This document shows, one piece after another, positions 3,553-28,193 of a stretch of DNA of 64,000 nt. A program made the position numbers and the translations under genes. The DNA is from Poecilobothrus nobilitatus (taxonomy: Eukaryota; Arthropoda; Insecta; Diptera; Dolichopodidae): NCBI GenBank assembly GCA_947095535.1, contig OX352773.1, positions 103,865,948 through 103,929,947 of the forward strand. The letters run 5' to 3'. Below the pieces are notes generated by a model. The model was not told where the DNA came from. It searched no databases and saw only the letters and a list, made by a program, of their open reading frames with translations. Within the stretch, counting starts at the first letter, position 1, and every line of letters begins with the position of its first letter.

Positions 3553-3558
3553 TATTTA
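3553..3558. repeat. Target-site duplication, left copy
   Basis: TATTTA sits directly before the AG that opens the left TIR; the same six bases follow the CT that closes the right TIR at 28188-28193. Six-base duplications are the known signature of Polinton integration. Confidence 0.9.
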
Positions 3559-4621: not shown

Positions 4622-4703
4622 TGGGTGCTAGAGGTTGGGTGGCTGAGGGTTGGGTGCTTAGGGGCTAGGGGTCTGGGGGCCTGTAGCTGGTGGGGGGCTA
4701 GGT
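4622..4703 (+). other. G-rich block of the TIR, potential G-quadruplex
   Basis: The plus strand has at least seven runs of three to six G separated by short loops, in a TIR that is otherwise very AT-rich. The complementary C-rich form lies at 27770-27860 in the right TIR, so the G-rich strand runs inward from both ends. Function is unknown. Confidence 0.6.
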
Positions 4704-9456: not shown

Positions 9457-9913
9457 TTTTAATAAATAAACATTTTCAAAAGCGCACATACCAACATGAT
9501 TGAACGAGCATCTTTGAGCAGGGGTATTTTGTTGCCTTTTTAAAAATTTTAGGCTTGTGTAATCTTGTCTGTTTAAATCTACAACATTATTATAATGTTT
9601 TGAATCCAAATTCTCTTTTCATCACCCTTTACGTAAATGCAAGTATTGGTATTTATAAACAATTTTAAAAAAATGTTCACAAAATCACATCACAAAAACT
9701 TGTTTTACCATCAGACCATTTAAATCCATGGTGATTTTTTGTTAACCATTTATTGATATATTTTGATTGTGACTCAAGTACGTGATAACTGTATGGAGGT
9801 TTAATTATGAAATGTTGAATTTCATTACTTGAAGTTAATATTGCAATTTCTTTTAGAATAAATTTGTTACTATTATCTCGGAAGCCTTGAATATCAAGTA
9901 TTGCATATTCCAT
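9457..9913 (-). pseudogene. Exonuclease-like conserved Polinton protein, copy 1
   Basis: From ATG 9913 the frame reads MEYAILDIQGF, then HFIIKPPYSY and WLTKNHHGFKW, the N-terminus of a protein often seen in insect Polintons. The ILDIQGF start recalls the first acidic motif of DEDD-type 3'-5' exonucleases; this is an inference. The frame stops at 9677, yet the expected C-terminal zinc-like end (a Cys/His run followed by CAFENVYLL) can still be read further downstream to about 9457 in shifted frames. Hence the gene is truncated by several frame lesions, all shared with copy 2. It is the last gene of the leftward set that starts with the core protein. Confidence 0.5.
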
Positions 9914-10063
9914 TGCTTAGATGTCTATAAAACAAGTAAATTAAAAATGTTACTCCAAAACAGAGTCGTATATAAAATGTATAAAACGATTTTAAATGAT
10001 TGATTTTGTCTATTCAGTGATTGTTGTTGTAATTTCATTAGAAAAGCTCATTGATTTGTAATT

Positions 10064-11252
10064 TTAATTTATTTTATTAACATCCCCGCTCAAAGGTTGA
10101 AATTCAACTAGTCGATCGTGTAACAAAAGACAGTAGGCTGTGGTACTTGCTGGAATGCTACTTGCAGTTTTAAGCTGTATTTTAACATCAATTGACCCCG
10201 TTTTTAAATTTTCATTTTGATAACGAGTGTCTATTACGAAAATTGTACTACTTTTCTTAAACTCTTCCCATGTTAATAAAGGTTCAGGTATAGAATAATT
10301 ATAATAATTGCAACGAAAGTTAATGTATGCCTCGTAAGCTATTCCATAGCGATGTCTTTCAAAATTTAAATTCATATCTTCATATGGATAAGCTTCTGAA
10401 TTTAAGAAAACTTTTAAATCTTCTACATACAAATGATCAAATTTCGATGGATCTTCTTTAAGTTGATTTAACTTATTTGTTTGTAGAGCGAAAATAATGA
10501 AACGCGGGTTTTCAAGTAGAGTTGTAGTTTTAACGTTCTAAATATGATGGTTAGTATTTGACGGTAATGTTGGATATTCTAAAAGCTAATATAATTTTAG
10601 CATTATTATCAATATTCTTGTACAGGTTTAATTTGAAGGAATCAGCTAAATTCAGCTAATGTTGTACTCGCCATTGCACTTTAAGTAATTGAATTTTCGG
10701 TTTTTCATTAATATCAGAGCAAAGTAAAGATTTATCATCAGATCTTGAACGTATCAAAATTAATTCATGTTTTGCATTCGGTATAATGTTTTTATGATCT
10801 TCAGCAAATCCCAAGAGTCTTTTCAATGGAACACAATAGTTAAAAAATTGTGTTTTTGAATCAATTGTTGCTTTAGGAGACCAACATGCATTCATAAGAG
10901 CTTGAATCTCATTTTCATTTAGCGAAATAAAATTTTTTAAACATGTTGTTATACCAACATTTCGACAATGATCAATTTCCTTCCCATTTAATTCATAGCG
11001 TACTTCTTCGAATAGAAATGCCATTGCGTTATTAATTAAATTTGTTTTTGTTGCAAGACTTCCATCTTGTTTTGAAATAAAGCCTTCAATATAAAGAATA
11101 CTGGTAGACGGTAAGATATTTAGATTTTGATTTTGTATTTGTATGCGAATAATATCGCTTTTATTAAATGAATCTGTGAATGCTGAATATGTGCGCCAAT
11201 GAGCACTTGTTATACTTACATCAATGACAGGGCTATGAAATAAATTATCCAT
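10064..11252 (-). pseudogene. MCP: Major capsid protein (double jelly-roll hexon), copy 1
   Basis: ATG at 11252 opens MDNLFHSPVIDVSITSAHW, and the C-terminal part (to 10064) contains YPYEDMNLNF and TTAYCLLLHDRLVEFQPL, the conserved end of Polinton/adintovirus major capsid proteins. An in-frame TAG at 10656-10658 splits the product after 198 codons, and a 17-base deletion at about 10579 (absent from copy 2) shifts frame before the C-terminal part. The intact length would be about 400 residues, normal for the family. The product would form the pseudo-hexagonal capsomers. Its start lies just downstream of the 59-residue ORF, and the penton gene precedes that on the same strand. Confidence 0.88.
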
Positions 11253-11255
11253 TTT

Positions 11256-11435
11256 TTAAAACGTTTTTAATTTAAGGCCAATTGATTTTAAAAATTGTTG
11301 TCTTTCTATTGTTAGAGTTCCTTTGTTTATTCTGTGAGATCTTATTCCTCTTAACGTTGACATGCTATTAAAATGATCCTTGACATGTGCTAAATATTTA
11401 TTGTGTTTCTGATAATTATTATCATATATTATCAT
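11256..11435 (-). CDS. 59-residue conserved small ORF between penton and capsid genes, copy 1
   Basis: ATG at 11433-11435 overlaps the penton stop by four bases (ATGA), and TAA at 11256 lies just before the capsid ATG. The product begins MIIYDNNYQKHNKYLAHVKD and ends ERQQFLKSIGLKLKTF. Lys-rich, no membrane segment. Short proteins with a similar FLKSIGF-type ending occur between capsid genes of insect Polintons as far as I recall. The tight overlap suggests translation by reinitiation from a polycistronic message. Function unknown. Confidence 0.6.
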   Translation of the reverse strand: MIIYDNNYQKHNKYLAHVKDHFNSMSTLRGIRSHRINKGTLTIERQQFLKSIGLKLKTF

Positions 11436-12133
11436 TTTTCCTGTTTTTTCAAGTGCAAGCGCACTGTTATAGTTTCACCTCGAAAATTAATTAAATTACC
11501 GTTCTGGTCGAGTAATTTTATGTTTATCGATTTGATTTGATTGACAGCTACTGGTAAATAGATAAGATTTCGAGGAACTTCAATTATTTTATAGCCGGGG
11601 CCAACATGAATTGAAAATATGTAAATATGTAAAATATGTACTCTCTGATCATTAATATTTGTTCCTTGAATAATGTTGCATTCAAATCGTATAATATTAA
11701 TTTTGTTTATATCAACAGGAAGATCTGAAATATTCCACTTATTTGGTTTTAATCTTCTTTTACTAAAATCTAACAATCCACCAATAGTGTCTTCTCGTTC
11801 AAAATCAATCTCTTCATCTGAAAAAATTTCACAATTTAATGTATTATTGTTAGCTTTTATATAGAGTTTCCGTTTTTCAGTTTTTGTATTTGTAATTTCT
11901 AGTTTCTTCTTAAGATAATCTTCGATATCTTCAATTTCATAGGAGCCTGTTGGAAGAATGATGCTTTTATCCCCAATAAGAAATCTATTATTTCCTTCAT
12001 CTACATTCGGTATAGAATTGTATGTCTGAAAATCAACTAATGCACAAATATATTCCCCTTCTAAATCTATGGGTGGAAAATATTCTGCTGTTAGTACAGA
12101 AATTTTACCATTTAAGGTAAACGTTAAAGACAT
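11432..12133 (-). CDS. mCP: Minor capsid (penton) protein, single jelly-roll, copy 1
   Basis: I start at ATG 12133 (MSLTFTLNGKISVL), giving 233 residues. Conserved family segments are GGLLDFSKRRL, FECNIIQG, GPGYKIIEVPRNLIYLPV and the end INFRGETITVRLHLKKQ, diagnostic of Polinton penton proteins, which form the fivefold vertices. Copy 1 reads HILHIYIFSIHV where copy 2 reads HILHEFSIHV, a small in-frame insertion in copy 1. The frame is intact, one of few virion genes here that is. The stop overlaps the start of the next ORF by ATGA. Confidence 0.88.
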   Translation of the reverse strand: MSLTFTLNGKISVLTAEYFPPIDLEGEYICALVDFQTYNSIPNVDEGNNRFLIGDKSIILPTGSYEIEDIEDYLKKKLEITNTKTEKRKLYIKANNNTLNCEIFSDEEIDFEREDTIGGLLDFSKRRLKPNKWNISDLPVDINKINIIRFECNIIQGTNINDQRVHILHIYIFSIHVGPGYKIIEVPRNLIYLPVAVNQIKSINIKLLDQNGNLINFRGETITVRLHLKKQEK

Positions 12134-12148
12134 GGTTGCTCTTAACAA

Positions 12149-12474
12149 TTATTAAACAATTAAACAATTATTGAAACGTATTATCTTTTATATAACCATT
12201 ATCATAATTTATTATAAATTAAATTACCTACACATATATATATACAATTTATGATGAAAATTCAATTTTAATTTCAATAACCTTAAATTTCATTTAAAAA
12301 TCATATGATTTTTATCAAGAAAATAAAAAACAAACCTTGAACTTAAAATTTGAATTGCATAATAAAAAAAACTATGATTCTATTCAATATCTCTATTGAA
12401 AGAAAACAAAAATAACCTTGAATTTACTTTTTTGTCACGCTTAAAAAGAAAAAAAAAATGTGATATATTTCTTA
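12149..12474. promoter_or_regulatory. Spacer between protease end and penton start, likely penton promoter region
   Basis: About 330 AT-rich bases with TATATATATACAAT-like stretches and no frame. It lies upstream of the minus-strand set penton, small ORF, capsid. The promoter role is inferred from position only. The same spacer is at 19740-20065. Confidence 0.35.
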
Positions 12475-12864
12475 TTAATTTTTTATTTTGTTTTTTTTGT
12501 TTTGCTTATAAAAAATAGTATTAGATAAGAAAGTTAAACATAAATGACCACAATTGTATGCATTAAATTTTTGATATTTATAATAATTATATGAAAGCTT
12601 ATTTCCTAAATATTTTACAATTTCATTTGGTGGTTTTAAATTTCCAAAGCTATCAAAATATTTTATATCATTTAAATTCTTATAATATGCTACCCAATGA
12701 ATTCCATCTCCGATTGAGTTATCTAAATTGACGATTCCACATTCACATTTCCAAGGTTTAGTTTTAGGAAGATCGTCTCTCATAAAAACTCCACGAAAAT
12801 ATTTTAAGTATTTGGTTCCAAAATTATTTAAATCAATATTGGTTAAAGCCCGTTTGGGTAGCAA
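12475..12864 (-). CDS. PRO: Adenain-like cysteine protease, copy 1
   Basis: The 129-residue frame has the family's order: N-terminal LTNIDLNNF, FRGVFMRDDLP, ECGIVNLDNS, catalytic His in GIHWVAYY (about residue 56), Asp in YFDSFG (71), Gln in YQKFN (98) and Cys in NCGHLC (105). It would cleave virion precursors during maturation. No ATG exists: the frame can open only with TTG at 12864 after the core-protein stop (12867-12869), or is open back to a TAA near 12905. The start codon may therefore be lost, or the protease may be reached by coupling to the upstream core gene. The C-terminus is short and Lys/Asn-rich. Confidence 0.85.
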   Translation of the reverse strand: MLPKRALTNIDLNNFGTKYLKYFRGVFMRDDLPKTKPWKCECGIVNLDNSIGDGIHWVAYYKNLNDIKYFDSFGNLKPPNEIVKYLGNKLSYNYYKYQKFNAYNCGHLCLTFLSNTIFYKQNKKNKIKN

Positions 12865-12866
12865 AC

Positions 12867-13692
12867 TTAGCGGTTTTTTGATGTCAGAAATAATCCAAGT
12901 CCCTGTTTATATGGTTTTAAATGTAAACCCCTTCCTCTTAGAGCAATAGCTTCCATTGTTTTATTATGACATTCACTTTCATTTAACTGCACCTTAGCAT
13001 TTTTAGCATCATTAACAGCTTTAGTTATACCAGCAGCACCACCTGCAAGAGCTCCGACAGCTGATAAACCTGCGAACATTGGAATTAATGGTAGAATGCC
13101 ACCAGTTTTAGGAACAGAAATAATGCGTGGTATTTTAATTGATTTTCTATTTTTGCTTATATTTCTAGCAGCTTTCAGCGCAATTTTGATAGCGTCATTT
13201 TGCTTATTAGATTTATACCCTTTAATAGCTATTCTAGCTTCTTGAATGACTCTTCTTAAGGGTTGCTTTTTCGGTGCTTTCTTTGCTTCCTTCTTGCAAC
13301 CCATACCAAGTCTAATTTTTGTTTTCATTGCGTTTGTAACAAGAAATCCGTTTGCTTTTTCACTTAAAGTTGAATCACGCGATTTAACTCTTTGCCAAGC
13401 TTTCTCAGCTAATATTTTATCAGCTATATGACGATCAGAAATATTAATATGTATGATAAATATTAATATGTTTAGAATATGCACTATCGTGTTCACGACA
13501 TGCATCATCTAATTGGTTTATTCCTTTATCCCCACGTTCTAGACGTTTTTTAAGTTTTGTTCCTGGTTCACAATAATTATATCCAGGTATATGTGCTTCA
13601 AATGGTAATTTAGTAATTATGGAATTTAATACACCACCTTTTTTTTTGATTTCTGATTTACAACTGATTGCATTTCTCTTGTAACTGATCAT
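12867..13692 (-). pseudogene. Phospholipase A2 / virion core (pX-like) fusion protein, copy 1
   Basis: ATG 13692 opens a frame with a parvovirus-like phospholipase A2 motif: calcium loop YNYCEPGT (38-45) and catalytic pair in CREHDSAYSK (His68-Asp69). A tandem 19-base duplication around 13440-13472 (AAATATTAATATGT twice) shifts frame right after it. The second frame (to 12867) continues SDRHIADKILAEKAWQRVK, a basic GMGCKKEAKKAPKKQPLRR stretch, a Gly/Ala-rich hydrophobic segment (GGILPLIPMFAGLSAVGALA) that looks membrane-active, and a Gly/Lys C-terminus. Such fusions are described in adintoviruses and probably help endosome escape. In copy 1 the calcium-loop Gly is Glu. Both copies share the frameshift, so neither makes the fusion. 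Confidence 0.75.
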
Positions 13693-13783
13693 ATTTAATC
13701 TTATATCGGTGAAAGTTCAATATGGATTGTTTTGATTAAGACATATAAATATAGTTTTATATGAAATTGATTTAGTTGCTAAA
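13693..13783. promoter_or_regulatory. Divergent promoter between core protein and ATPase genes, copy 1
   Basis: Only 91 bases separate two opposed ATGs, so both start signals should lie here. It contains TATAAATATAG at about 13744. Same layout in copy 2 (21284-21374). Promoter role inferred from geometry. Confidence 0.45.
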
Positions 13784-14486
13784 ATGAAGTTTATCAAAAA
13801 AGGTGAAACAATAAAGATTATGAATTTGATGAGAAATGTAATATTATTAAAGAGTATAAGAAACACGGAGAAATACTACCAAACAGTATTCGAGGATTAA
13901 TTGTTGGACCATCTAATTGTGGTAAAACAAATGTCATGTTAAGCATGTTATTAGATCCAAAAGGTCTTAAATTTCAAAATATATACATTTATTCGAAATC
14001 ATTACACCAGCCGAAGTATCAGTATTTTAAAAAAATTATAAAACCTATTAAAGGAATGGGATATAATGAATTTTCAAATAATTCAGATGTAGTTAAACCA
14101 TCAGAATCCCAGCCTAATTCAATATTCATATTTGATGATGTTGCATGTGATAAACAATATAAAGTGAGGGAATATTTTTGTATGGGACGGCATCAAAACG
14201 TCGACAATATTTATGTCAATCTTTCTATTTATGTCAATCATATACTCGAATTCCTAAACATTTAATAAGAGATAATGCAAATTTTATAATTTTATTTAAG
14301 CAAGATGATTTAAAATTAAAGCATATCTATAATGATCATGTTAATGCAGATATGTCCTTTAAGCAATTTAAAGATATATGCACACATTGTTGGCGAAATA
14401 GCTATGGATTTTTACTTATTGATAAAGATAGAGCTTTAAATAATGGTCGCTATAAAAGAAATTTTGAAGAATGTGTTCAATTATAA
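13784..14486 (+). pseudogene. ATPase: Packaging ATPase (FtsK/HerA type), copy 1
   Basis: Same gene as 21375-22078, with Walker A GPSNCGKT and Walker B IFIFDDVA. A T missing at about 13826 (ATGAATTTGATG against ATGAATTTTGATG in copy 2) adds a private frameshift after 14 codons. The shared lesion near 14205-14230 separates the Walker domain from the C-terminal part (RIPKHLIRDNANFIILFKQDD). The enzyme would pump DNA into the capsid. Inactive here. Confidence 0.88.
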
Positions 14487-14496
14487 ACATATATAA

Positions 14497-14633
14497 TATA
14501 CCGTTCATAACAACAACAGATCAGATCAACAACAGCAGCATATCAGATCAGGAACAACAACAGATCAGATCAGACCAGTTTCGATTCAATACAGATCAGG
14601 TCAGATCAGTTGCAGTTCAATAGCAGTTCAATC
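14497..14633 (+). repeat. CAGATCAG-rich leader before the conserved 317-residue protein
   Basis: Between the ATPase stop and ATG 14634 the sequence is a degenerate array of CAGATCA(G) and AACAACAG words. Identical in copy 2 (22089-22225). It forms the 5' leader of the next gene; no function is known to me. Confidence 0.6.
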
Positions 14634-14977
14634 ATGAATAAAACCTTTAATGAAAAAGTCTTAAAAGACATAATTAAAACGAGAAAAAATTTGCAAAGGA
14701 AATATAAAACATTAAAAACTGGAAAAATAGCAGAGGAGCAATATTTGGAGGAAACATTTAAGCCAATTGTAGAGCCAATTAAAAAATTAACTAATATTGT
14801 GAAAAAGCAGGAAGTGAAACCGGAAGATGAATCCAAAACTACTGATAATGATAAAATTAGTATGACACCATTCATGCATAAAACGGAAACACCAAAGAAA
14901 AAGAAATCAGATTTTGAAAGTTTTAAGACATCAACACCTAACACTACTACATTTTCAACTTCTAAATTGACTGCCGA

Positions 14978-15008
<31 letters not shown>

Positions 15009-15587
15009 CCTTTATACAGCTATAATAAATCAAAAATTGATAAGAGTTATGGACCATATCTTGACCTAAAATCAAACATAAGAAAATTAGGTAATTCAAC
15101 GTTTAGTATTAATGAAAATAATCATAACATAATTATTAATGGTGAGACCTTTGAGGGAACTGAAGGTTTGCATAACCTTATATTTAAAAAGAAACCAGTG
15201 AATTATACTGAAAATGATTTAAAACAGTATCAAAGAATTTTGGAAAAAACTAATGCTCATAGGAGAAATTATGATTCATTGGAACAAATTAAAGGAAATA
15301 AGGGTTATAAATATCAAAATATTATAAAACACCTGTATAAACATGAATATAATACGAGAACTAAAAAAGGAAATTCTTATTCTAATAAAAATTTATTAGC
15401 ATTGCCACACTCTTCTAATATGTTATATTCAAACCGCCAGATTCAATATACTTATTGGGATGACCCTAATGAATTAGTTGATAGATTGGAGCTTTTGATT
15501 GCATCAGAAATGTCTGGTAACAATAATCATCATAATGAAATCAATTCCATTATTGAAGAACTCAGAGAAGCTAATATAATTGAGTAA
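14634..15587 (+). CDS. Conserved Polinton protein (DUF8207-like), copy 1
   Basis: I choose ATG 14634 (MNKTFNEKVLKDIIKTRKNL), giving 317 residues. Order: Lys-rich helical N-terminus, a disordered Ser/Thr/Pro region with a run of ten Ser encoded by a TCA repeat (14980-15008), a middle segment SYGPYLDLKSNIRKLG, and a C-terminus YTYWDDPNELVDRLELLIAS ... SIIEELREANII. The C-terminal motif is common to a protein of insect Polintons that I believe is catalogued as DUF8207 (not verified). It is probably a virion or assembly protein, located right after the ATPase. Frame fully open and identical in both cassettes. Confidence 0.75.
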
Positions 15588-15611
15588 TAAATATTTTAAA
15601 GTAACACTTAC

Positions 15612-16109
15612 ATGATGACAATTGACAAATTTGGTCATACTCGAGCTCAACCATATAAAAATAAACCGTTAAACAGCCATATAATAAGTTTTCCTTTAAC
15701 TTCAGAAGGAAATTATGATCTATAAAATAAGCAATTCGCAAATGTTAGAACACCCATTAATCCAACAGATGTTGTAACAAAAAGTTATATTGATAATCAA
15801 TTCGATATTCATGATGAAAGTATAACAAATCTTTTTATAGATTTTCAAAGAGAAAATGCTGACTGGGTAAATACACAACTTTCAGATGCAAATGAAACCA
15901 TAAAACAATATACTGAAAATGAAATTAGCAAATTAGATGATAAATTAAAAACTTTTATTGAAGAAAAAATTGAAAGACATAATTCGTTTATCTGGAGCAG
16001 CATGGAAAAGGAAATTAAAAATGCTATGCATTTCGTAGATACGAATGCTGCAGAAATTCTTAAAAACTTTGAACTTCGAATAAAACTTTTGGAAACAAAT
16101 AGTAAATAA
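15612..16109 (+). pseudogene. Fibre-like coiled-coil protein, copy 1, one in-frame stop
   Basis: ATG 15612/15615 opens a 165-codon frame ending TAA 16107, interrupted only by TAA at 15723-15725. Before the stop it reads TRAQPYKNKPLNSHIISFPL; after it come NVRTPINPTDVVTKSYIDNQ, which resembles the neck motif of phage tail fibres (N-x-P-x-D-x-x-TK-x-Y-ID), and then a heptad-rich coiled coil to the end. This suggests a trimeric vertex or attachment protein; the assignment is inferred from motif and coiled coil. The stop is shared with copy 2. Confidence 0.55.
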
Positions 16110-16141
16110 ATTTGTCTGTACTAAAGATTTAGGCATTAAAC

Positions 16142-16432
16142 ATGGATATATCACGAATCGGATATAAATTGAATAATTTTCTAAATATATATGAAGATAT
16201 TCTATTAGAAGAACATTATACTGAATTAAAAGATCATTTTAATTTTTTGGTGCAGTTCAAAAATTCAGTGCAGTTGGAAACAAGAAATCATGGTATTCAT
16301 TATACTATATGCCCATATGCATCAGATTCATCTGATTCATACCCAGATACATGTCCATGTATGTCGGCTGAACGAATAATGATAAGAATTGTGAAATTAA
16401 TGAAATTATATGAGAGAATTAAAAATAAATAA
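16142..16432 (+). CDS. Unidentified 96-residue protein, copy 1
   Basis: Open frame from ATG 16142, 33 bases after the fibre-like gene. N-terminal half is an acidic amphipathic helix region (NNFLNIYEDILLEEHYTELK); the middle is HYTICPYASDSSDSYPDTCP with CPCMSAER, giving four Cys that could bind metal or form disulfides; the C-terminus is a basic helix. I do not recognise it. It is identical at the protein level in both cassettes, and sits between virion genes and the PPP1R15-like gene. Confidence 0.6.
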   Translation: MDISRIGYKLNNFLNIYEDILLEEHYTELKDHFNFLVQFKNSVQLETRNHGIHYTICPYASDSSDSYPDTCPCMSAERIMIRIVKLMKLYERIKNK

Positions 16433-16491
16433 AACTATTTAAATTAAAAAAAAAAATAAATAAGCATTATAATTATTGTTTCATATTTAAA

Positions 16492-16857
16492 ATGAGTCAG
16501 AGTGAGGTGGTTGATTTATTTGAATGGCTTAACATTTTGGATTCCTCTGAAGAGAGTGATGTAGAGAAGGAGGAGGAGGAAGTGAAAGACGATGGCCAAA
16601 AGCTGATGAAAAGAGTTCGTTTTGATTTAAAACCTCAAATCCATATATTGTACACATGGAACTCTGCGCATAAATTAGCTCGACAAAAATATTGGGAGAT
16701 TATAGCTCTAGATCGAGTAAGATTTAATAAAAGAATTGAAAATACTGATAACCTTATCTCTAACGTTTTAAATAAAAACCATCGTCAGCATATTTTTAAT
16801 GACAGATTTTCTAATTACAACCTCATAACAGAAATAAAACTAGATCATTCATCATGA
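16492..16857 (+). CDS. PPP1R15/GADD34-like PP1-recruiting protein, copy 1
   Basis: 121 residues from ATG 16492. An N-terminal helix (SEVVDLFEWLNIL) and an acidic stretch (19-34) precede KRVRF (40-44), a canonical RVxF PP1-docking motif. After it follow HILYTW, LARQKYWE (62-69) and A-x-DRVRF-x-x-RI (72-82). This order, spacing and end (W-E-x-x-A-x-D-R-x-RF-x-x-RI) is the hallmark of the PPP1R15 family, whose members bring PP1 to phosphorylated eIF2alpha and restore translation; some large DNA viruses carry such proteins to undo PKR-type shutdown. Here it would be a host-countermeasure gene. Function is inferred; the motif is seen directly. One residue differs from copy 2 (Asp34 against Asn). 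It ends with an ATGA overlap with the integrase start. Confidence 0.75.
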   Translation: MSQSEVVDLFEWLNILDSSEESDVEKEEEEVKDDGQKLMKRVRFDLKPQIHILYTWNSAHKLARQKYWEIIALDRVRFNKRIENTDNLISNVLNKNHRQHIFNDRFSNYNLITEIKLDHSS

Positions 16858-16905
16858 CTAAGAGAGAGGTTGTTGAAGAATTACATAAGCCAGCTCATTA
16901 CATAA
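16854..16905 (+). pseudogene. Truncated integrase start and duplication junction with templated filler
   Basis: ATG 16854 begins the integrase frame (MTKREVVEELHKPA) but homology ends at 16896. Then ATTACATAA (16897-16905) precedes the start of copy 2. The filler repeats the bases ATTACATAAG found just upstream at 16880-16889, so the junction was joined after local templated synthesis. Confidence 0.85.
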
Positions 16906-17046
16906 GGTGGAAAAAATCAAAGCGAAAAAAAAAAAATATGTTACAGTAAAACTGTTCATTCATTTTTATTTAATCATTATTAGTACATATCACAATTAAA
17001 TCATAAAAATCATAACAATAAAATAATAAAATGTTTACAATAGTGA

Positions 17047-17503
17047 TTTTAATAAATAAACATTTTCAAAAGCGCACATACCAACATGATTGAACGAGCA
17101 TCTTTGAGCAGGGGTATTTTGTTGCCTTTTTAAAAATTTTAGGCTTGTGTAATCTTGTCTGTTTAAATCTACAACATTATTATAATGTTTTGAATCCAAA
17201 TTCTCTTTTCATCACCCTTTACGTAAATGCAAGTATTGGTATTTATAAACAATTTTAAAAAATTGTTCACAAAATCACATCACAAAAACTTGTTTTACCA
17301 TCAGACCATTTAAATCCATGGTGATTTTTTGTTAACCATTTATTGATATATTTTGATTGTGACTCAAGTACGTGATAACTGTATGGAGGTTTAATTATGA
17401 AATGTTGAATTTCATTACTTGAAGTTAATATTGCAATTTCTTTTAGAATAAATTTGTTACTATTATCTCGGAAGCCTTGAATATCAAGTATTGCATATTC
17501 CAT
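17047..17503 (-). pseudogene. Exonuclease-like conserved Polinton protein, copy 2
   Basis: Identical 78-codon start to copy 1 and the same decayed C-terminal part; a single base differs just after the stop (TTGTTCAC against ATGTTCAC). See the entry at 9457. Confidence 0.5.
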
Positions 17504-17653
17504 TGCTTAGATGTCTATAAAACAAGTAAATTAAAAATGTTACTCCAAAACAGAGTCGTATATAAAATGTATAAAACGATTTTAAATGATTGATTTTGTC
17601 TATTCAGTGATTGTTGTTGTAATTTCATTAGAAAAGCTCATTGATTTGTAATT

Positions 17654-18859
17654 TTAATTTATTTTATTAACATCCCCGCTCAAAGGTTGAAATTCAACTA
17701 GTCGATCGTGTAACAAAAGACAGTAGGCTGTGGTACTTGCTGGAATGCTACTTGCAGTTTTAAGCTGTATTTTAACATCAATTGACCCCGTTTTTAAATT
17801 TTCATTTTGATAACGAGTGTCTATTACGAAAATTGTACTACTTTTCTTAAACTCTTCCCATGTTAATAAAGGTTCAGGTATAGAATAATTATAATAATTG
17901 CAACGAAAGTTAATGTATGCCTCGTAAGCTATTCCATAGCGATGTCTTTCAAAATTTAAATTCATATCTTCATATGGATAAGCTTCTGAATTTAAGAAAA
18001 CTTTTAAATCTTCTACATACAAATGATCAAATTTCGATGGATCTTCTTTAAGTTGATTTAACTTATTTGTTTGTAGAGCGAAAATAATGAAACGCGGGTT
18101 TTCAAGTAGAGTTGTAGTTTTAACGTTCCAAATATGATGGTTAGTATTTGACGGTAATGTTGGATATTCATATAAATCCCAATTTCTAAAAGCTAATATA
18201 ATTTTAGCATTATTATCAATATTCTTGTACAGGTTTAATTTGAAGGAATCAGCTAAATTCAGCTAATGTTGTACTCGCCATTGCACTTTAAGTAATTGAA
18301 TTTTCGGTTTTTCATTAATATCAGAGCAAAGTAAAGAGTTATCATCAGATCTTGAACGTATCAAAATTAATTCATGTTTTGCATTCGGTATAATGTTTTT
18401 ATGATCTTCAGCAAATCCCAAGAGTCTTTTCAATGGAACACAATAGTTAAAAAATTGTGTTTTTGAATCAATTGTTGCTTTGGGAGACCAACATGCATTC
18501 ATAAGAGCTTGAATCTCATTTTCATTTAGCGAAATAAAATTTTTTAAACATGTTGTTATACCAACATTTCGACAATGATCAATTTCCTTCCCATTTAATT
18601 CATAGCGTACTTCTTCGAATAGAAATGCCATTGCGTTATTAATTAAATTTGTTTTTGTTGCAAGACTTCCATCTTGTTTTGAAATAAAGCCTTCAATATA
18701 AAGAATACTGGTAGACGGTAAGATATTTAGATTTTGATTTTGTATTTGTATGCGAATAATATCGCTTTTATTAAATGAATCTGTGAATGCTGAATATGTG
18801 CGCCAATGAGCACTTGTTATACTTACATCAATGACAGGGCTATGAAATAAATTATCCAT
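17654..18859 (-). pseudogene. MCP: Major capsid protein (hexon), copy 2, single in-frame TAG
   Basis: Here the whole gene stays in one frame from ATG 18859 to TAA 17654, 400 codons broken only by TAG at 18263-18265 after residue 198. N-terminal (VIDVSITSAHWRTYSAF) and C-terminal (TTAYCLLLHDRLVEFQP) family motifs are present, and the 17 bases lost in copy 1 are retained (near 18170). One substitution separates the N-terminal parts (Asn against Lys at residue 174). The TAG predates the duplication. Read-through would restore full length, but nothing in the sequence argues for it. Confidence 0.9.
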
Positions 18860-18862
18860 TTT

Positions 18863-19042
18863 TTAAAACGTTTTTAATTTAAGGCCAATTGATTTTAAAA
18901 ATTGTTGTCTTTCTATTGTTAGAGTTCCTTTGTTTATTCTGTGAGATCTTATTCCTCTTAACGTTGACATGCTATTAAAATGATCCTTGACGTGTGCTAA
19001 ATATTTATTGTGTTTCTGATAATTATTATCATATATTATCAT
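18863..19042 (-). CDS. 59-residue small ORF between penton and capsid genes, copy 2
   Basis: Same ORF and same four-base ATGA overlap with the penton stop as at 11256; one difference in the nucleotide sequence is seen (GACGTG against GACATG). Function unknown. Confidence 0.6.
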   Translation of the reverse strand: MIIYDNNYQKHNKYLAHVKDHFNSMSTLRGIRSHRINKGTLTIERQQFLKSIGLKLKTF

Positions 19043-19734
19043 TTTTCCTGTTTTTTCAAGTGCAAGCGCACTGTTATAGTTTCACCTCGAAAATTAATTA
19101 AATTACCGTTCTGGTCGAGTAATTTTATGTTTATCGATTTGATTTGATTGACAGCTACTGGTAAATAGATAAGATTTCGAGGAACTTCAATTATTTTATA
19201 GCCGGGGCCAACATGAATTGAAAATTCATGTAAAATATGTACTCTCTGATCATTAATATATGTTCCTTGAATAATGTTGCATTCAAATCGTATAATATTA
19301 ATTTTGTTTATATCAACAGGAAGATCTGAAATATTCCACTTATTTGGTTTTAATCTTCTTTTACTAAAATCTAACAATCCACCAATAGTGTCTTCTCGTT
19401 CAAAATCAATCTCTTCATCGGAAAAAATTTCACAATTTAATGTATTATTGTTAGCTTTTATATAGAGTTTCCGTTTTTCAGTTTTTGTATTTGTAATTTC
19501 TAGTTTCTTCTTAAGATAATCTTCGATATCTTCAATTTCATAGGAGCCTGTTGGAAGAATGATGCTTTTATCCCCAATAAGAAATCTATTATTTCCTTCA
19601 TCTACATTCGGTATAGAATTGTATGTCTGAAAATCAACTAATGCACAAATATATTCCCCTTCTAAATCTATGGGTGGAAAATATTCTGCTGTTAGTACAG
19701 AAATTTTACCATTTAAGGTAAACGTTAAAGACAT
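19039..19734 (-). CDS. mCP: Minor capsid (penton) protein, copy 2
   Basis: 231 residues from ATG 19734, intact. It has HILHEFSIHVGPGYKIIEV, which fits the family better than copy 1's HIYIF version, so copy 2 is the ancestral form. One further change (Tyr against Asn in IIQGTYI). Single jelly-roll vertex protein by homology. Confidence 0.88.
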   Translation of the reverse strand: MSLTFTLNGKISVLTAEYFPPIDLEGEYICALVDFQTYNSIPNVDEGNNRFLIGDKSIILPTGSYEIEDIEDYLKKKLEITNTKTEKRKLYIKANNNTLNCEIFSDEEIDFEREDTIGGLLDFSKRRLKPNKWNISDLPVDINKINIIRFECNIIQGTYINDQRVHILHEFSIHVGPGYKIIEVPRNLIYLPVAVNQIKSINIKLLDQNGNLINFRGETITVRLHLKKQEK

Positions 19735-20065
19735 GGTTGCTCTTAACCAATTAAACAATTATTGAAACGTATTATCTTTTATATAACCATTATCATAATT
19801 TATTATAAATTAAATTACCTACACATATATATATACAATTTATGATGAAAATTCAATTTTAATTTCAATAACCTTAAATTTCATTTAAAAATCATATGAT
19901 TTTTATCAAGAAAATAAAAAACAAACCTTGAACTTAAAATTTGAATTGCATAATAATAAAAACTATGATTCTATTCAATATCTCTATTGAAAGAAAACAA
20001 AAATAACCTTGAATTTACTTTTTTGTCACGCTTAAAAAGAAAAAAAAAATGTGATATATTTCTTA

Positions 20066-20455
20066 TTAATTTTTTATTTTGTTTTTTTTGTTTTGCTTAT
20101 AAAAAATAGTATTAGATAAGAAAGTTAAACATAAATGACCACAATTGTATGCATTAAATTTTTGATATTTATAATAATTATATGAAAGCTTATTTCCTAA
20201 ATATTTTACAATTTCATTTGGTGGTTTTAAATTTCCAAAGCTATCAAAATATTTTATATCATTTAAATTCTTATAATATGCTACCCAATGAATTCCATCT
20301 CCGATTGAGTTATCTAAATTGACGATTCCACATTCACATTTCCAAGGTTTAGTTTTAGGAAGATCGTCTCTCATAAAAACTCCACGAAAATATTTTAAGT
20401 ATTTGGTTCCAAAATTATTTAAATCAATATTGGTTAAAGCCCGTTTGGGTAGCAA
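20066..20455 (-). CDS. PRO: Adenain-like cysteine protease, copy 2
   Basis: Identical protein to copy 1 with His, Asp, Gln and Cys of the active site present. The same missing-ATG problem applies (TTG 20455), and the core-protein stop lies two bases away. Confidence 0.85.
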   Translation of the reverse strand: MLPKRALTNIDLNNFGTKYLKYFRGVFMRDDLPKTKPWKCECGIVNLDNSIGDGIHWVAYYKNLNDIKYFDSFGNLKPPNEIVKYLGNKLSYNYYKYQKFNAYNCGHLCLTFLSNTIFYKQNKKNKIKN

Positions 20456-20457
20456 AC

Positions 20458-21283
20458 TTAGCGGTTTTTTGATGTCAGAAATAATCCAAGTCCCTGTTTA
20501 TATGGTTTTAAATGTAAACCCCTTCCTCTTAGAGCAATAGCTTCCATTGTTTTATTATGACATTCACTTTCATTTAACTGCACCTTAGCATTTTTAGCAT
20601 CATTAACAGCTTTAGTTATACCAGCAGCACCACCTGCAAGAGCTCCGACAGCTGATAAACCTGCGAACATTGGAATTAATGGTAGAATGCCACCAGTTTT
20701 AGGAACAGAAATAATGCGTGGTATTTTAATTGATTTTCTATTTTTGCTTATATTTCTAGCAGCTTTCAGCGCAATTTTGATAGCGTCATTTTGCTTATTA
20801 GATTTATACCCTTTAATAGCTATTCTAGCTTCTTGAATGACTCTTCTTAAGGGTTGCTTTTTCGGTGCTTTCTTTGCTTCCTTCTTGCAACCCATACCAA
20901 GTCTAATTTTTGTTTTCATTGCGTTTGTAACAAGAAATCCGTTTGCTTTTTCACTTAAAGTTGAATCACGCGATTTAACTCTTTGCCAAGCTTTCTCAGC
21001 TAATATTTTATCAGCTATATGACGATCAGAAATATTAATATGTATGATAAATATTAATATGTTTAGAATATGCACTATCGTGTTCACGATATGCATCATC
21101 TAATTGGTTTATTCCTTTATCCCCACGTTCTAGACGTTTTTTAAGTTTTGTTCCTGGTCCACAATAATTATATCCAGGTATATGTGCTTCAAATGGTAAT
21201 TTAGTAATTATGGAATTTAATACACCACCTTTTTTTTTGATTTCTGATTTACAACTGATTGCATTTCTCTTGTAACTGATCAT
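20458..21283 (-). pseudogene. Phospholipase A2 / virion core fusion protein, copy 2
   Basis: Same layout and same 19-base frameshifting duplication (around 21031-21063) as copy 1. In copy 2 the calcium loop is the canonical YNYCGPGT, but the Cys before the catalytic pair is Tyr (DAYREHDSAY). So the two copies have lost different conserved residues since the duplication, as expected for decay without selection. Confidence 0.75.
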
Positions 21284-21374
21284 ATTTAATCTTATATCGG
21301 TGAAAGTTCAATATGGATTGTTTTGATTAAGACATATAAATATAGTTTTATATGAAATTGATTTAGTTGCTAAA
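21284..21374. promoter_or_regulatory. Divergent promoter between core protein and ATPase, copy 2
   Basis: The same 91-base divergent spacer as at 13693-13783, with TATAAATATAG near 21335. Confidence 0.45.
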
Positions 21375-22078
21375 ATGAAGTTTATCAAAAAAGGTGAAAC
21401 AATAAAGATTATGAATTTTGATGAGAAATGTAATATTATTAAAGAGTATAAGAAACACGGAGAAATACTACCAAACAGTATTCGAGGATTAATTGTTGGA
21501 CCATCTAATTGTGGTAAAACAAATGTCATGTTAAGCATGTTATTAGATCCAAAAGGTCTTAAATTTCAAAATATATACATTTATTCGAAATCATTACACC
21601 AGCCGAAGTATCAGTATTTTAAAAAAATTATAAAACCTATTAAAGGAATGGGATATAATGAATTTTCAAATAATTCAGATGTAGTTAAACCATCAGAATC
21701 CCAGCCTAATTCAATATTCATATTTGATGATGTTGCATGTGATAAACAATATAAAGTGAGGGAATATTTTTGTATGGGACGGCATCAAAACGTCGACAAT
21801 ATTTATGTCAATCTTTCTATTTATGTCAATCATATACTCGAATTCCTAAACATTTAATAAGAGATAATGCAAATTTTATAATTTTATTTAAGCAAGATGA
21901 TTTAAAATTAAAGCATATCTATAATGATCATGTTAATGCAGATATGTCCTTTAAGCAATTTAAAGATATATGCACACATTGTTGGCGAAATAGCTATGGA
22001 TTTTTACTTATTGATAAAGATAGAGCTTTAAATAATGGTCGCTATAAAAGAAATTTTGAAGAATGTGTTCAATTATAA
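21375..22078 (+). pseudogene. ATPase: Packaging ATPase (FtsK/HerA type), copy 2, one frame lesion
   Basis: ATG 21375 opens a frame with Walker A GPSNCGKT (residues 42-49), IYIYSKSLHQPKYQYF, Walker B IFIFDDVA (114-121) and the arginine-bearing MGRHQNVD. Near 21797-21825 the sequence TTTATGTCAATC occurs twice; this templated insertion shifts frame. The C-terminal part (TRIPKHLIRDNANFIILFKQ ... RNSYGFLLIDKD) continues in another frame to TAA 22076. Expected full product about 230 residues, normal for Polinton packaging ATPases. Broken in both cassettes. Confidence 0.9.
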
Positions 22079-22088
22079 ACATATATAA

Positions 22089-22225
22089 TATACCGTTCAT
22101 AACAACAACAGATCAGATCAACAACAGCAGCATATCAGATCAGGAACAACAACAGATCAGATCAGACCAGTTTCGATTCAATACAGATCAGGTCAGATCA
22201 GTTGCAGTTCAATAGCAGTTCAATC
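22089..22225 (+). repeat. CAGATCAG-rich leader, copy 2
   Basis: Same degenerate GATC-rich array as at 14497-14633. Confidence 0.6.
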
Positions 22226-22569
22226 ATGAATAAAACCTTTAATGAAAAAGTCTTAAAAGACATAATTAAAACGAGAAAAAATTTGCAAAGGAAATATAAA
22301 ACATTAAAAACTGGAAAAATAGCAGAGGAGCAATATTTGGAGGAAACATTTAAGCCAATTGTAGAGCCAATTAAAAAATTAACTAATATTGTGAAAAAGC
22401 AGGAAGTGAAACCGGAAGATGAATCCAAAACTACTGATAATGATAAAATTAGTATGACACCATTCATGCATAAAACGGAAACACCAAAGAAAAAGAAATC
22501 AGATTTTGAAAGTTTTAAGACATCAACACCTAACACTACTACATTTTCAACTTCTAAATTGACTGCCGA

Positions 22570-22600
<31 letters not shown>

Positions 22601-23179
22601 CCTTTATACAGCTATAATAAATCAAAAATTGATAAGAGTTATGGACCATATCTTGACCTAAAATCAAACATAAGAAAATTAGGTAATTCAACGTTTAGTA
22701 TTAATGAAAATAATCATAACATAATTATTAATGGTGAGACCTTTGAGGGAACTGAAGGTTTGCATAACCTTATATTTAAAAAGAAACCAGTGAATTATAC
22801 TGAAAATGATTTAAAACAGTATCAAAGAATTTTGGAAAAAACTAATGCTCATAGGAGAAATTATGATTCATTGGAACAAATTAAAGGAAATAAGGGTTAT
22901 AAATATCAAAATATTATAAAACACCTGTATAAACATGAATATAATACGAGAACTAAAAAAGGAAATTCTTATTCTAATAAAAATTTATTAGCATTGCCAC
23001 ACTCTTCTAATATGTTATATTCAAACCGCCAGATTCAATATACTTATTGGGATGACCCTAATGAATTAGTTGATAGATTGGAGCTTTTGATTGCATCAGA
23101 AATGTCTGGTAACAATAATCATCATAATGAAATCAATTCCATTATTGAAGAACTCAGAGAAGCTAATATAATTGAGTAA
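22226..23179 (+). CDS. Conserved Polinton protein (DUF8207-like), copy 2
   Basis: Identical 317-residue frame to copy 1, with poly-Ser region and YWDDPNELVDRLELLIAS C-terminus. Complete conservation while neighbours decay may only reflect the recent duplication. Confidence 0.75.
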
Positions 23180-23203
23180 TAAATATTTTAAAGTAACACT
23201 TAC

Positions 23204-23701
23204 ATGATGACAATTGACAAATTTGGTCATACTCGAGCTCAACCATATAAAAATAAACCGTTAAACAGCCATATAATAAGTTTTCCTTTAACTTCAGAAG
23301 GAAATTATGATCTATAAAATAAGCAATTCGCAAATGTTAGAACACCCATTAATCCAACAGATGTTGTAACAAAAAGTTATATTGATAATCAATTCGATAT
23401 TCATGATGAAAGTATAACAAATCTTTTTATAGATTTTCAAAGAGAAAATGCTGACTGGGTAAATACACAACTTTCAGATGCAAATGAAACCATAAAACAA
23501 TATACTGAAAATGAAATTAGCAAATTAGATGATAAATTAAGAACTTTTATTGAAGAAAAAATTGAAAGACATAATTCGTTTATCTGGAGCAGCATGGAAA
23601 AGGAAATTAAAAATGCTATGCATTTCGTAGATACGAATGCTGCAGAAATTCTTAAAAACTTTGAACTTCGAATAAAACTTTTGGAAACAAATAGTAAATA
23701 A
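23204..23701 (+). pseudogene. Fibre-like coiled-coil protein, copy 2, same in-frame stop
   Basis: Same frame and same TAA (23315-23317) as copy 1; one substitution (Arg against Lys in DDKLRTFIEE). Fibre-like TDVVTKSYID motif and coiled coil present. Confidence 0.55.
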
Positions 23702-23733
23702 ATTTGTCTGTACTAAAGATTTAGGCATTAAAC

Positions 23734-24024
23734 ATGGATATATCACGAATCGGATATAAATTGAATAATTTTCTAAATATATATGAAGATATTCTATTAG
23801 AAGAACATTATACTGAATTAAAAGATCATTTTAATTTTTTGGTGCAGTTCAAAAATTCAGTGCAGTTGGAAACAAGAAATCATGGTATTCATTATACTAT
23901 ATGCCCATATGCGTCAGATTCATCTGATTCATACCCAGATACATGTCCATGTATGTCGGCTGAACGAATAATGATAAGAATTGTGAAATTAATGAAATTA
24001 TATGAGAGAATTAAAAATAAATAA
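23734..24024 (+). CDS. Unidentified 96-residue protein, copy 2
   Basis: Identical protein to copy 1; one silent change (GCG against GCA in the PYASDS segment). Unrecognised. Confidence 0.6.
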   Translation: MDISRIGYKLNNFLNIYEDILLEEHYTELKDHFNFLVQFKNSVQLETRNHGIHYTICPYASDSSDSYPDTCPCMSAERIMIRIVKLMKLYERIKNK

Positions 24025-24083
24025 AACTATTTAAATTAAAAAAAAAAATAAATAAGCATTATAATTATTGTTTCATATTTAAA

Positions 24084-24449
24084 ATGAGTCAGAGTGAGGT
24101 GGTTGATTTATTTGAATGGCTTAACATTTTGGATTCCTCTGAAGAGAGTGATGTAGAGAAGGAGGAGGAGGAAGTGAAAAACGATGGCCAAAAGCTGATG
24201 AAAAGAGTTCGTTTTGATTTAAAACCTCAAATCCATATATTGTACACATGGAACTCTGCGCATAAATTAGCTCGACAAAAATATTGGGAGATTATAGCTC
24301 TAGATCGAGTAAGATTTAATAAAAGAATTGAAAATACTGATAACCTTATCTCTAACGTTTTAAATAAAAACCATCGTCAGCATATTTTTAATGACAGATT
24401 TTCTAATTACAACCTCATAACAGAAATAAAACTAGATCATTCATCATGA
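24084..24449 (+). CDS. PPP1R15/GADD34-like PP1-recruiting protein, copy 2
   Basis: Same 121-residue protein with KRVRF docking motif and W-E...DRVRF...RI core. It differs at one acidic-region residue (Asn34 for Asp). The TGA stop overlaps the integrase ATG by four bases (ATGA at 24446-24449), so in this copy the gene is directly coupled to an intact integrase. Confidence 0.75.
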   Translation: MSQSEVVDLFEWLNILDSSEESDVEKEEEEVKNDGQKLMKRVRFDLKPQIHILYTWNSAHKLARQKYWEIIALDRVRFNKRIENTDNLISNVLNKNHRQHIFNDRFSNYNLITEIKLDHSS

Positions 24450-25366
24450 CTAAGAGAGAGGTTGTTGAAGAATTACATAAGCCAGCTCGAAAAAATTTTA
24501 AAAGGCGTAGAGTAATTATCAAAGGTTATGATGATCTCTGGCAAGCAGATTTGGTAGAAATGGGTTTATATGCTAAAGAAAATAAAACATTTCGATTCTT
24601 ACTAACCGTAATCGATACCTTTTCGAAATATGCCTGGGCTATTCCAATAAAAAATAAAACAGCTCAAAATGTTGCTCAGGCAATGCAATCAATTTTCACA
24701 AAATTTAACAGATATCCAAAAAATCTTCAGACTGATGATGGAAAAGAATTCTTCAACATAACTTTTAAAAATTTAATGAGAAATTATAAAATCAATCATT
24801 ACTCAACTTTTAGCTCATTAAAAGCACCTATTGTAGAGCGCTTTAATCGCACTTTAAAAGAAAAAATGTGGAAAGAATTCAGCTTTAATGGAAATTACAA
24901 ATGGATAGGCATAATTGAAAGTTTAGTTCATCAATATAATCACAAAAAACATCGCACAATTGGAAGATCTCCATCAGATATAAATGAAAAAAATGCTAAT
25001 GAGCTGCTGTCAAGTGTTTATAATCATATAAAAATTTCACCACCGGCTAAATTCAAAATTGGTGACTCAGTTCGGATAAGCAAGTTTAAACACGTTTTTG
25101 AAAAAGGTTATACACCCAATTGGACAACTGAAATATTTAAGATAAGAAAACTGCAAATTACTAATCCCGTAACATATTTGCTAGAAGATTATCAACACAA
25201 TCCAATAGAAGGAAGCTTTTATGAAGCAGAACTATTAAAAACAAAAATTAAAGATATTTACTTAATTGAAAAAATATTAAAATATAAGGATGATAAAGCT
25301 TTTGTTAAATGGCTTGGGTTTCCTTCAAGTCATAATTCATGGATAAATAAAACAGATTTAATTTAA
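24446..25366 (+). CDS. INT: Retroviral-like integrase of Polinton-A, intact
   Basis: 306 residues. The start MTKREVVEELHKPARKNF followed by a basic stretch is the usual Polinton beginning. Catalytic DDE triad: D35 (WQADLVEMG), D97 (LQTDDGKEFF) and E131 (APIVERFNRTLKEKMW), about 33 residues between the last two, as in retroviral integrases. Around residues 205-230 an SH3-like segment (AKFKIGDSVRISKFKHVFEK) and at the end a chromodomain-like module (KAFVKWLGFPSSHNSW). It would insert the linear element with a six-base staggered cut, matching the TATTTA duplication. No stop or frameshift: the only core replication/integration gene still open. Confidence 0.95.
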   Translation: MTKREVVEELHKPARKNFKRRRVIIKGYDDLWQADLVEMGLYAKENKTFRFLLTVIDTFSKYAWAIPIKNKTAQNVAQAMQSIFTKFNRYPKNLQTDDGKEFFNITFKNLMRNYKINHYSTFSSLKAPIVERFNRTLKEKMWKEFSFNGNYKWIGIIESLVHQYNHKKHRTIGRSPSDINEKNANELLSSVYNHIKISPPAKFKIGDSVRISKFKHVFEKGYTPNWTTEIFKIRKLQITNPVTYLLEDYQHNPIEGSFYEAELLKTKIKDIYLIEKILKYKDDKAFVKWLGFPSSHNSWINKTDLI

Positions 25367-26919: not shown

Positions 26920-27151
26920 GTCTATCCTTACTAATCTTGTTGTGTAATGATGATCTTAATCTTACAAATACCCCTTTTAACCAACAAATTTTTAACAGTC
27001 TTTAGAAAAATCACATTTTGTTTTTGCTCTTTTTCTTTTTATTTTTTCAATATTAAAATTTGAACATTTTTTATATCAACAATTATTCAATAACTCATCG
27101 GAATTCCCTGACGTCATTATTCATTTCTTCATATATCTTTTTTTTATTCAA
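26920..27151. other. Spacer between last ORF and right TIR
   Basis: AT-rich with poly-T tracts. It contains GACGTCATTA near 27110; a related GACGTAATTTT lies in the TIR at 27258. No coding frame. Confidence 0.4.
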
Positions 27152-28187
27152 AACATATTTCATAATTTAATTTTTTTTTTACTTTACTCACTTTCTATAT
27201 GAATCTATGAACTTTTTATTTCATTAAACTTTTATCAGCCACGTTTACGGAATCCCCTGACGTAATTTTTTACAAATTAGACTTTTTCTTTTATTCTTCA
27301 AATCAAAATTTTCTTATCTAATTTTATATTTGAAAACCACTATAACATATTTTACTAAGAAAAAATTTGAAAATTTGAATTTAAATTTTATTAAATTTTC
27401 TTATCTAATTTTATATTTGAAAACCACTATAACATATTTTACTAAGAAAAAATTTAAATTTAAATTTTATTAAATTTTCTTATCTAATTTTATATTTGAA
27501 AACCACTATAAAATATTATTTTAATAAGAAGAAATTTGAATTTAAATTTTATATTCTTATCACAAAAGAAACCACAATAATACACCTACCTACTATAAGC
27601 TACTCAATTCCCAACAATTTCATTTTCAATAATAAGCAAAAATTATATTTTATTATTATGTGTGTAAACTCATTTCATAAACAAAAATTCAATCTCATAA
27701 TACTCCCAACTGTACTAGAATCGGCAAACCTAACTTCTCTCAGTTTCCAATCTAGACAATATCTCAGAATCTAGTCCCCCACCAGCTACAGGCCCCCAGA
27801 CCCCTAGCCCCTAAGCACCCAACCCTCAGCCGCCCAACCTCTAGCACCCAGACTCTAGCCAACAAAACTCTACCCGCAACAAAAAAAACCTGCATTCATT
27901 TCAAAACTAAAATTCAATTCCATTATACCCCACACTGACATTTTTTTAAATTCAAATTTTTTTAAATTCAAAATTAACCGCCACTAACGCGAATTTAAAT
28001 TCAAATTTTTTTAAATTTCAAAATTAACCGCCACTAACGCTAATTTAAATTCAAATTTTTTTTAAATTTCAAAATTAACCGCCACTAACGCGAAACCTCT
28101 ATAGGCATAAATTATAACTACTTTTTTTATACCTGGCAAAATAAATGACAGCTGTCAAAACTGTGGAATTGCCAGATTCTATCTACT
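27152..28187. repeat. Right terminal inverted repeat
   Basis: 1036 bases complementary to the left TIR. Holds three inner direct repeats (around 27300-27520), the C-rich form of the G block (27770-27860) and three outer modules with AATTAACCGCCACTAACGC (27975, 28021, 28073). Ends ...GATTCTATCTACT. It is uninterrupted and represents the ancestral TIR. Confidence 0.93.
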
Positions 28188-28193
28188 TATTTA
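28188..28193. repeat. Target-site duplication, right copy
   Basis: TATTTA directly after the element's terminal CT; identical to 3553-3558. Confidence 0.9.

Follow-up and report, generated by a model that had tools for sequence, protein, structure and literature searches.

A Polinton accessory gene that probably encodes a minimal PPP1R15 (GADD34/CReP) family protein

Does a virus-like mobile element carry its own means of relieving host translation shutdown? This question is raised by a short open reading frame (ORF) in the 64-kb stretch of DNA analysed here as a whole (the window), for which a preliminary description, made from the letters alone, had proposed a Polinton-encoded PPP1R15/GADD34-like protein coupled to integrase. 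The 121-codon frame is present as described, as are the KRVRF sequence at residues 40-44 of its product and the W...DR.RF block, WEIIALDRVRFNKRI, at residues 68-82 (Table 1). At the local base composition, an open stretch of this length has a probability of ~2e-5 per starting position. As set out below, the ORF very probably encodes a minimal protein of the PPP1R15 (GADD34/CReP) family, maintained as a Polinton accessory gene whose product would counter translation shutdown via PP1, actin, and eIF2alpha.

Table 1. Positions of the features discussed, counted from the first letter of the window.
Feature	Position	Strand	Evidence or remark
Target-site duplication, left, TATTTA, 6 bp	3553..3558		
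Left terminal inverted repeat; the sequence at ~3746-4463 is unpaired and interrupts it	3559..5293	+	Repeat comparison
Tandem duplication, 9316-16896 and 16906-24488	9316..24488		99.4% identical
Second ORF copy in the tandem duplication	16492..16857	+	PF10488 E=2.4e-6, 27.9 bits, above cut-off of 26.1
Gene for the double-jelly-roll major capsid protein, split into two frames	17657..18862	-	PF21738 5.5e-45 (N part), 2.6e-64 (C part)
Possible adenovirus-type protease	20069..20497	-	Peptidase_C5 E=0.0029, below cut-off
317-aa open frame	22226..23179	+	Without Pfam match
96-aa open frame	23734..24024	+	No Pfam match reaching the cut-off; related loci likewise have it as the neighbour upstream of the PPP1R15-like ORF
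PPP1R15-like ORF, 121 aa	24084..24449	+	PF10488 PP1c_bdg E=2.1e-6, 28.0 bits against cut-off of 26.1
RVxF PP1-docking motif, R41-V42-R43-F44	24204..24215	+	V and F in 27/27 distinct group A proteins
Residues 64-82 (Arg64, Trp68, Phe78, Arg81, Ile82), PP1 arginine-pocket and actin-contact block	24273..24329	+	Roles from available parts of PMC4394352, PMC8500838
Residues 98-106, counterpart of actin-binding C-terminal helix	24375..24401	+	Roles from available parts of PMC8500838, PMC4394352
Polinton integrase, rve core	24446..25366	+	rve 4.5e-14; weak Chromo match 8e-4, below cut-off; start overlaps ORF stop (ATGA)
Right terminal inverted repeat	27151..28187	-	Repeat comparison
Target-site duplication, right, TATTTA, 6 bp	28188..28193		

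Comparison of the 121-aa product with PDB sequences returns four matches at E<=1, all to PPP1R15 or a viral relative: PPP1R15A (1.5e-4 and 1.6e-3), PPP1R15B (1.1e-3), and the African swine fever virus protein DP71L (3.7e-3). Human PPP1R15A aligns with the product without gaps over 55 residues, 21 of them identical, which bears out the earlier claim that the block stands at the ungapped spacing of animal PPP1R15 proteins; the PPP1R15B alignment contains 17 identities over 40 residues. The Pfam profile for the PPP1R15 C-terminal domain likewise gives a significant match, with both window copies of the ORF above the PF10488 cut-off. This profile (PP1c_bdg) recognizes 16 of 17 aligned family members at E<=0.001 (best 9.3e-12) and misses one, and the subfamily represented by L083 scores 22.4 bits, under the Pfam cut-off of 26.1. 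In the reverse direction, a profile built from the family alignment and searched against PDB at E<=0.01 retrieves six distinct sequences, every one of which is PPP1R15B (best 2.1e-9), PPP1R15A (best 1e-8), or DP71L (1.4e-5). In three such searches with the element proteins, DP71L scores lower than the best PPP1R15A or PPP1R15B chain.

With its small size and its acidic, lysine-rich stretch, the product could invite chance similarity, yet that explanation is effectively refuted by shuffling controls. With a PPP1R15A fragment as the query, the ORF product scores 29.2 bits against a best of 9.6 among 20,000 shuffles, and the corresponding values with a PPP1R15B fragment are 26.5 and 8.6 bits. A divergent relative elsewhere in the genome, L043, reaches 44.5 bits on PF10488 (E=1.9e-11), with a PPP1R15B match of 6.2e-9. 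The window has 1296 stop-to-stop frames of 25 aa or more, and the two ORF copies are the only ones to stand out, the runner-up reaching 4.3 bits with the PPP1R15A fragment and 6.6 with the PPP1R15B fragment; beyond these two copies, no PPP1R15-like frame of that size was found in the 64 kb. Structure prediction for the single protein was uninformative: run without an alignment, it produced a single long helix, and run with one, a model of low confidence (mean pLDDT 48.9). This is expected for a family whose core is natively unstructured until wrapped around PP1 (PMC4394352, available part).

The correspondence extends to individual residues to which a role has been assigned. In the available parts of PMC4394352 and PMC8500838, V641 and F643 of PPP1R15B dock PP1, Y650 and I652 lie at the phi-phi site, and R658 occupies the arginine pocket. 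Altering W662, F672, or I676 makes PPP1R15B less responsive to actin, and deletion of F696-Q700 abrogates actin stimulation. Actin contacts in human PPP1R15A, from the same sources, are F592, R595, and R612. Eleven such literature-tied PP1- or actin-contact positions agree in the ORF product (V42, F44, H51, L53, R64, W68, F78, R81, I82, R98, and F102), the counterpart numbering being our own, derived from the PDB-match alignments and the positions given in these papers. The RVxF, phi-phi, and Arg docking residues (V42, F44, H51, L53, R64) occur in order and at the family spacing, and the phi-phi pair is identical to that of PPP1R15A (His, Leu), unlike that of PPP1R15B (Tyr, Ile). Farther along, W68, F78, R81, I82, and R98 are the counterparts of PPP1R15A Trp582, Phe592, Arg595, Ile596, and Arg612, and F102 is that of PPP1R15B Phe696. 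There is also a mismatch: W616 and L619 of human PPP1R15A, mutated in the study available in part as PMC4394351, would by running number fall on F102 and R105. Mouse PPP1R15A carrying F585A or I589A still reversed the stress response in vivo in a wild-type-like manner (PMC4394352, available part), and F78 and I82, the counterparts of these residues, are therefore weak evidence of activity.

The element that carries the ORF is a Polinton, and it is not intact. It spans 24.6 kb between target-site duplications and contains an internal 7.6-kb tandem duplication (14 mismatches and 5 gaps between its halves), which is either real or an assembly artefact and without which the element would measure ~17 kb. 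An ATPase_2 match (E=0.0013) lies below the cut-off, and the element frames tested gave no DNA_pol_B_2 match, and no PDB match for a polymerase either, but only a sub-threshold endonuclease VII match. The unpaired ~0.7 kb within the left inverted repeat (3746-4463) holds most of a 177-aa stop-to-stop frame (3738-4268). In its integrase and capsid genes and in its size, the element resembles the insect adintoviruses or Polintons associated with Drosophila, for which twelve proteins are predicted, among them polymerase B, integrase, capsid, protease, and FtsK, together with possible distant relatives of one hytrosavirus gene and one ichnovirus gene (PMC8363768, available part). Unlike the present element, those adintoviruses are not credited with a PPP1R15 gene in the available part of that account.

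The window contains two copies of the ORF because of the tandem duplication, and since both lie within one 99.4%-identical repeat they do not constitute independent evidence; they differ at 1 of 366 bases, resulting in N33D. The preliminary description had stressed that both copies are open while the neighbouring virion genes are broken. The ORFs are indeed both open, and the capsid gene is split. In both copies, however, the frames of 317 aa and 96 aa are open as well, and the integrase is open in its complete copy, so that openness alone does not single out the PPP1R15-like gene. Because its element is broken at the capsid gene, the window copy may no longer act. That the window copies are decayed, unexpressed relics of a gene useful only to past elements is accordingly a real possibility, if a somewhat doubtful one: the capsid is interrupted, a polymerase domain was not found in the frames of the element, and the two open copies amount to one duplication. 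Such a fate for the window copies would nevertheless be compatible with a PPP1R15 function for the family, in which another subfamily was recently mobile with its gene open and selection between subfamilies is supported (see below).

A protein search of the genome from which the window derives (944 Mb, 84 contigs) yielded at least 150 scored matches among 2034 first-look candidates; these counts are lower bounds, and they include both window copies as well as many that are truncated or interrupted. Recurrence of the ORF next to integrase, a check that the preliminary description had proposed, is seen within this genome: a same-strand integrase relative lies downstream in 27 of the first 30 loci retrieved (L008-L037, including the two window copies, L008 and L009), some of these integrases being themselves in pieces. 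The exceptions are L009, which is cut by the tandem duplication, L030, without a match in its 3-kb locus, and L037, in which the gene is elsewhere in the element. Coupling to integrase in the stricter sense of overlapping genes holds for part of the family. Among the 19 of 56 complete frames whose 3' ends were inspected, 13 share the ATGA overlap of ORF stop and integrase start (12 from the window lineage, plus its sister L027), whereas the other six stop with TAG. In L032-L035 and L083 a spacer of 43-48 nt precedes the next ATG, and in L081 no ATG is visible in the inspected stretch. Integrase relatives were located downstream of L083 and L081 (in L092 and L093); the 1.15 kb adjoining L077 shows a polymerase-region frame (L094), not integrase. 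Because one subfamily (L074, L094) has the gene in a position that is not upstream of integrase, the PPP1R15-like gene has changed place within the elements. Proteins of the window lineage and L027 carry an extra C-terminal tail; those of the other listed subfamilies end earlier. In L083, L084, and L085 the 360-nt gene copies are identical on three contigs, from which it follows that one subfamily moved recently with its gene open.

Relatives beyond this genome were sought in IMG/VR, where searches by protein, integrase, capsid, motif, and the shorter protein described next returned none. Three IMG/VR pattern matches (L001-L003) contain a stop within the motif stretch and are due to chance; another four, from bacteria (L004-L007), were likewise judged chance because their flanks are unlike the core outside the searched motif.

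Searching the same genome with the PF10488 model uncovers a second type of protein. At least 150 scored matches exceed the cut-off, among 1569 candidates, and 26 of the 30 such loci fetched (L038-L067) encode a ~74-aa family that consists of the core alone, some copies being interrupted; the other four (L039-L042) are of another, interrupted type. Matches between this bare-core family (group B) and the 121-aa ORF are 40-47% identical. The divergent frame beside the core in L073 matches the packaging-ATPase family Pox_A32 above the cut-off (E=2.5e-6), and a relative of this ATPase is present in 28 of the 30 3-kb loci L038-L067 (all except L063 and L066). It is found in 7 of 7 wider group B contexts versus none of the 30 loci (L008-L037) of the longer type (group A). 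Integrase relatives occur in three of the seven wider contexts (L070, L071, and L072; not L068, L069, L073, or L075), two of the three having been fetched after a nearby integrase match had already been seen. From this gene content, group B is read as a second Polinton-like lineage. A locus first taken as a possible host gene (C1:99508354) proved to be another group B copy beside element genes. The PPP1R15 gene of the host itself was not found among the 30 3-kb loci together with L068 and L075, which represent part of the at least 150 scored PF10488 matches.

Conservation was assessed in 84 partly overlapping loci (L008-L091). Frames were counted if they span 70 aa or more and have a start codon close to the position expected, which excludes copies that are shorter, truncated, or without a start; the loci provide 56 such frames, of which 44 are distinct. 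Group A comprises 27 distinct proteins of at least 95 aa and group B 17 of 65-94 aa. In group A, V42, F44, W68, F78, R81, and I82 are invariant, R64 and F102 occur in 26 of 27, L53 in 24, and R98 and H51 in 23. F44, R64, W68, F78, R81, I82, R98, and F102 are found in all 17 group B proteins, V42 in 16, and H51 in 14; L53 is absent from all 17 (Met in 15, Val in 1, Ile in 1). Representatives at 58-78% identity retain the motifs, and the RVxF and W...RF elements are present in the other copies and in the second Polinton-like lineage, as homologues of a PPP1R15-like protein were expected to show. When eight group A representatives are compared region by region, identity averages 0.74 over the core, 0.71 over the head, and 0.43 over the acidic linker. 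Group A shares a conserved head (residues 1-15) and an acidic stretch, neither of which group B possesses.

Nei-Gojobori dN/dS was calculated for 18 representatives, all copies from one genome, with pairs scored if dS fell between 0.08 and 1.3; of 153 pairs, 71 were scored and 82 were not (74 with dS >1.3 and 8 with dS <0.08). The ratio is below 1 in all 71 scored pairs, which share branches and are therefore not independent, with a maximum of 0.67 and 46 values between 0.20 and 0.36. The bootstrap upper bound stays below 1 in 55 pairs, whereas 16 intervals reach 1, including all four within group B. The preliminary description had also proposed a test for selection; among these copies of one genome, the ratios support purifying selection between group A subfamilies. 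For group B the evidence is residue conservation and not selection, because all four of its intervals reach 1.

These data also bear on whether the gene is a functionless passenger, a fragment of host PPP1R15 acquired by passive capture. In favour of this view, PPP1R15 is a host gene family, and mobile elements commonly capture host sequence. Passive capture is nonetheless very improbable given start-to-stop frames in several subfamilies and in two lineages, a core that is kept while the acidic linker has diverged, and the dN/dS values of 0.20-0.36 that make up most of the scored pairs. A Polinton-encoded protein of the PPP1R15 family, as originally proposed, is instead supported by the profile match, the residue match, the Polinton context, and conservation across copies.

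Placed beside known systems, the element proteins are a pared-down version of an animal regulator. PPP1R15 is described as a metazoan component (PMC8500838, available part), which makes it likely that the host is an animal. Like PPP1R15A (GADD34) and PPP1R15B (CReP), the element proteins have the RVxF motif, the phi-phi pair, the Arg, the Trp, and most of the actin-contact residues, and the spacing from RVxF to Trp is ungapped, as in PPP1R15A. Unlike the human proteins, which measure 674 aa (R15A) and 713 aa (R15B; PMC7615683, available part), they are ~74-121 aa in length, lack the long N-terminal region, and are encoded by intron-less frames in a mobile element. In this they resemble the viral PPP1R15 relatives, short proteins taken over by DNA viruses and presumably undoing eIF2alpha phosphorylation. 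The list in the available part of PMC4394352 comprises ICP34.5 of HSV-1, DP71L of African swine fever virus, and relatives in Amsacta moorei entomopoxvirus, Glossina salivary gland hypertrophy virus, Choristoneura granulovirus, and Trichoplusia ascovirus; four of these six DNA viruses are named after insects. The gene described here, unlike those viral ones, resides in an integrated 24.6-kb Polinton and has at least 150 scored matches in one genome. The six viral carriers listed are free DNA viruses with large genomes. In an open-access library of papers we found no report of a PPP1R15/GADD34 gene in Polintons or Mavericks; an earlier mention outside it is possible.

By analogy with the action attributed to viral PPP1R15 proteins, the element protein would dock host PP1 through RVxF, phi-phi, and Arg, its C-terminal part would recruit G-actin, and the resulting PP1-actin complex would most likely dephosphorylate eIF2alpha. 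Translation might then be kept on despite shutdown by host kinases during replication of the element or production of its capsid, and in this we infer the benefit of the gene to the element. How the substrate would be engaged is less straightforward. In the available part of PMC7615683, substrate recruitment is assigned to a short helix (H1) that precedes the core on its N-terminal side and is conserved in viral relatives too, and the C-terminal core is held to be unable by itself to raise activity toward eIF2alpha; on whether the core suffices for eIF2alpha phosphatase activity, PMC4394352 and PMC7615683 differ in their available parts. The conserved head of group A could be a helix of this kind, and, as a guess by analogy, the head and the acidic stretch could serve substrate recruitment in the manner of the H1 helix and ED motif of PPP1R15B. 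The position taken in PMC7615683 makes it less likely that group B acts alone.

The same considerations apply to the alternative that the protein binds PP1 without acting on eIF2alpha, as a PP1 decoy or as an adaptor for another substrate. Many PP1 regulators share the RVxF motif (PMC4394352, PMC7615683, available parts), the core alone may not recruit eIF2 (PMC7615683, available part), and group B proteins are too short to hold a recruitment region upstream of the core. Against this alternative, the residues beyond the Trp (F78, R81, I82, R98, and F102) are kept in nearly all distinct proteins, and we regard it as unlikely. The group B protein lends itself naturally to testing whether the bare core is enough for eIF2alpha phosphatase activity.

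The two protein types suggest a broader scenario, for and against which the balance is nearly even: Polintons may have taken over the animal PPP1R15 core at least twice, once as a protein of 110-121 aa usually beside integrase and once as one of ~74 aa beside the packaging ATPase, each selected as an anti-stress-response gene. Such a twofold capture, if true, would imply a replicative or infectious phase that the host fights by eIF2alpha phosphorylation. The many copies and two element lineages suggest that these elements counter host translation shutdown, and a selectively maintained PPP1R15 gene would be a direct hint that animal Polintons meet such a shutdown. The observation thus bears on whether animal Polintons still behave as viruses facing host defences, and it would extend PPP1R15 capture, known from large DNA viruses, to integrated elements.

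Outside the carrier element, the window contains further Polinton-related sequence. Fragments of DNA_pol_B_2 genes lie at 36188-36577 (+), 46796-47170 (+), and 52627-53313 (-), and are probably derived from additional, decayed Polintons. Decayed relatives of the integrase are located at 44996-45875 (+) and 54250-54426 (-), with 35-53% identity to the integrase of the element.
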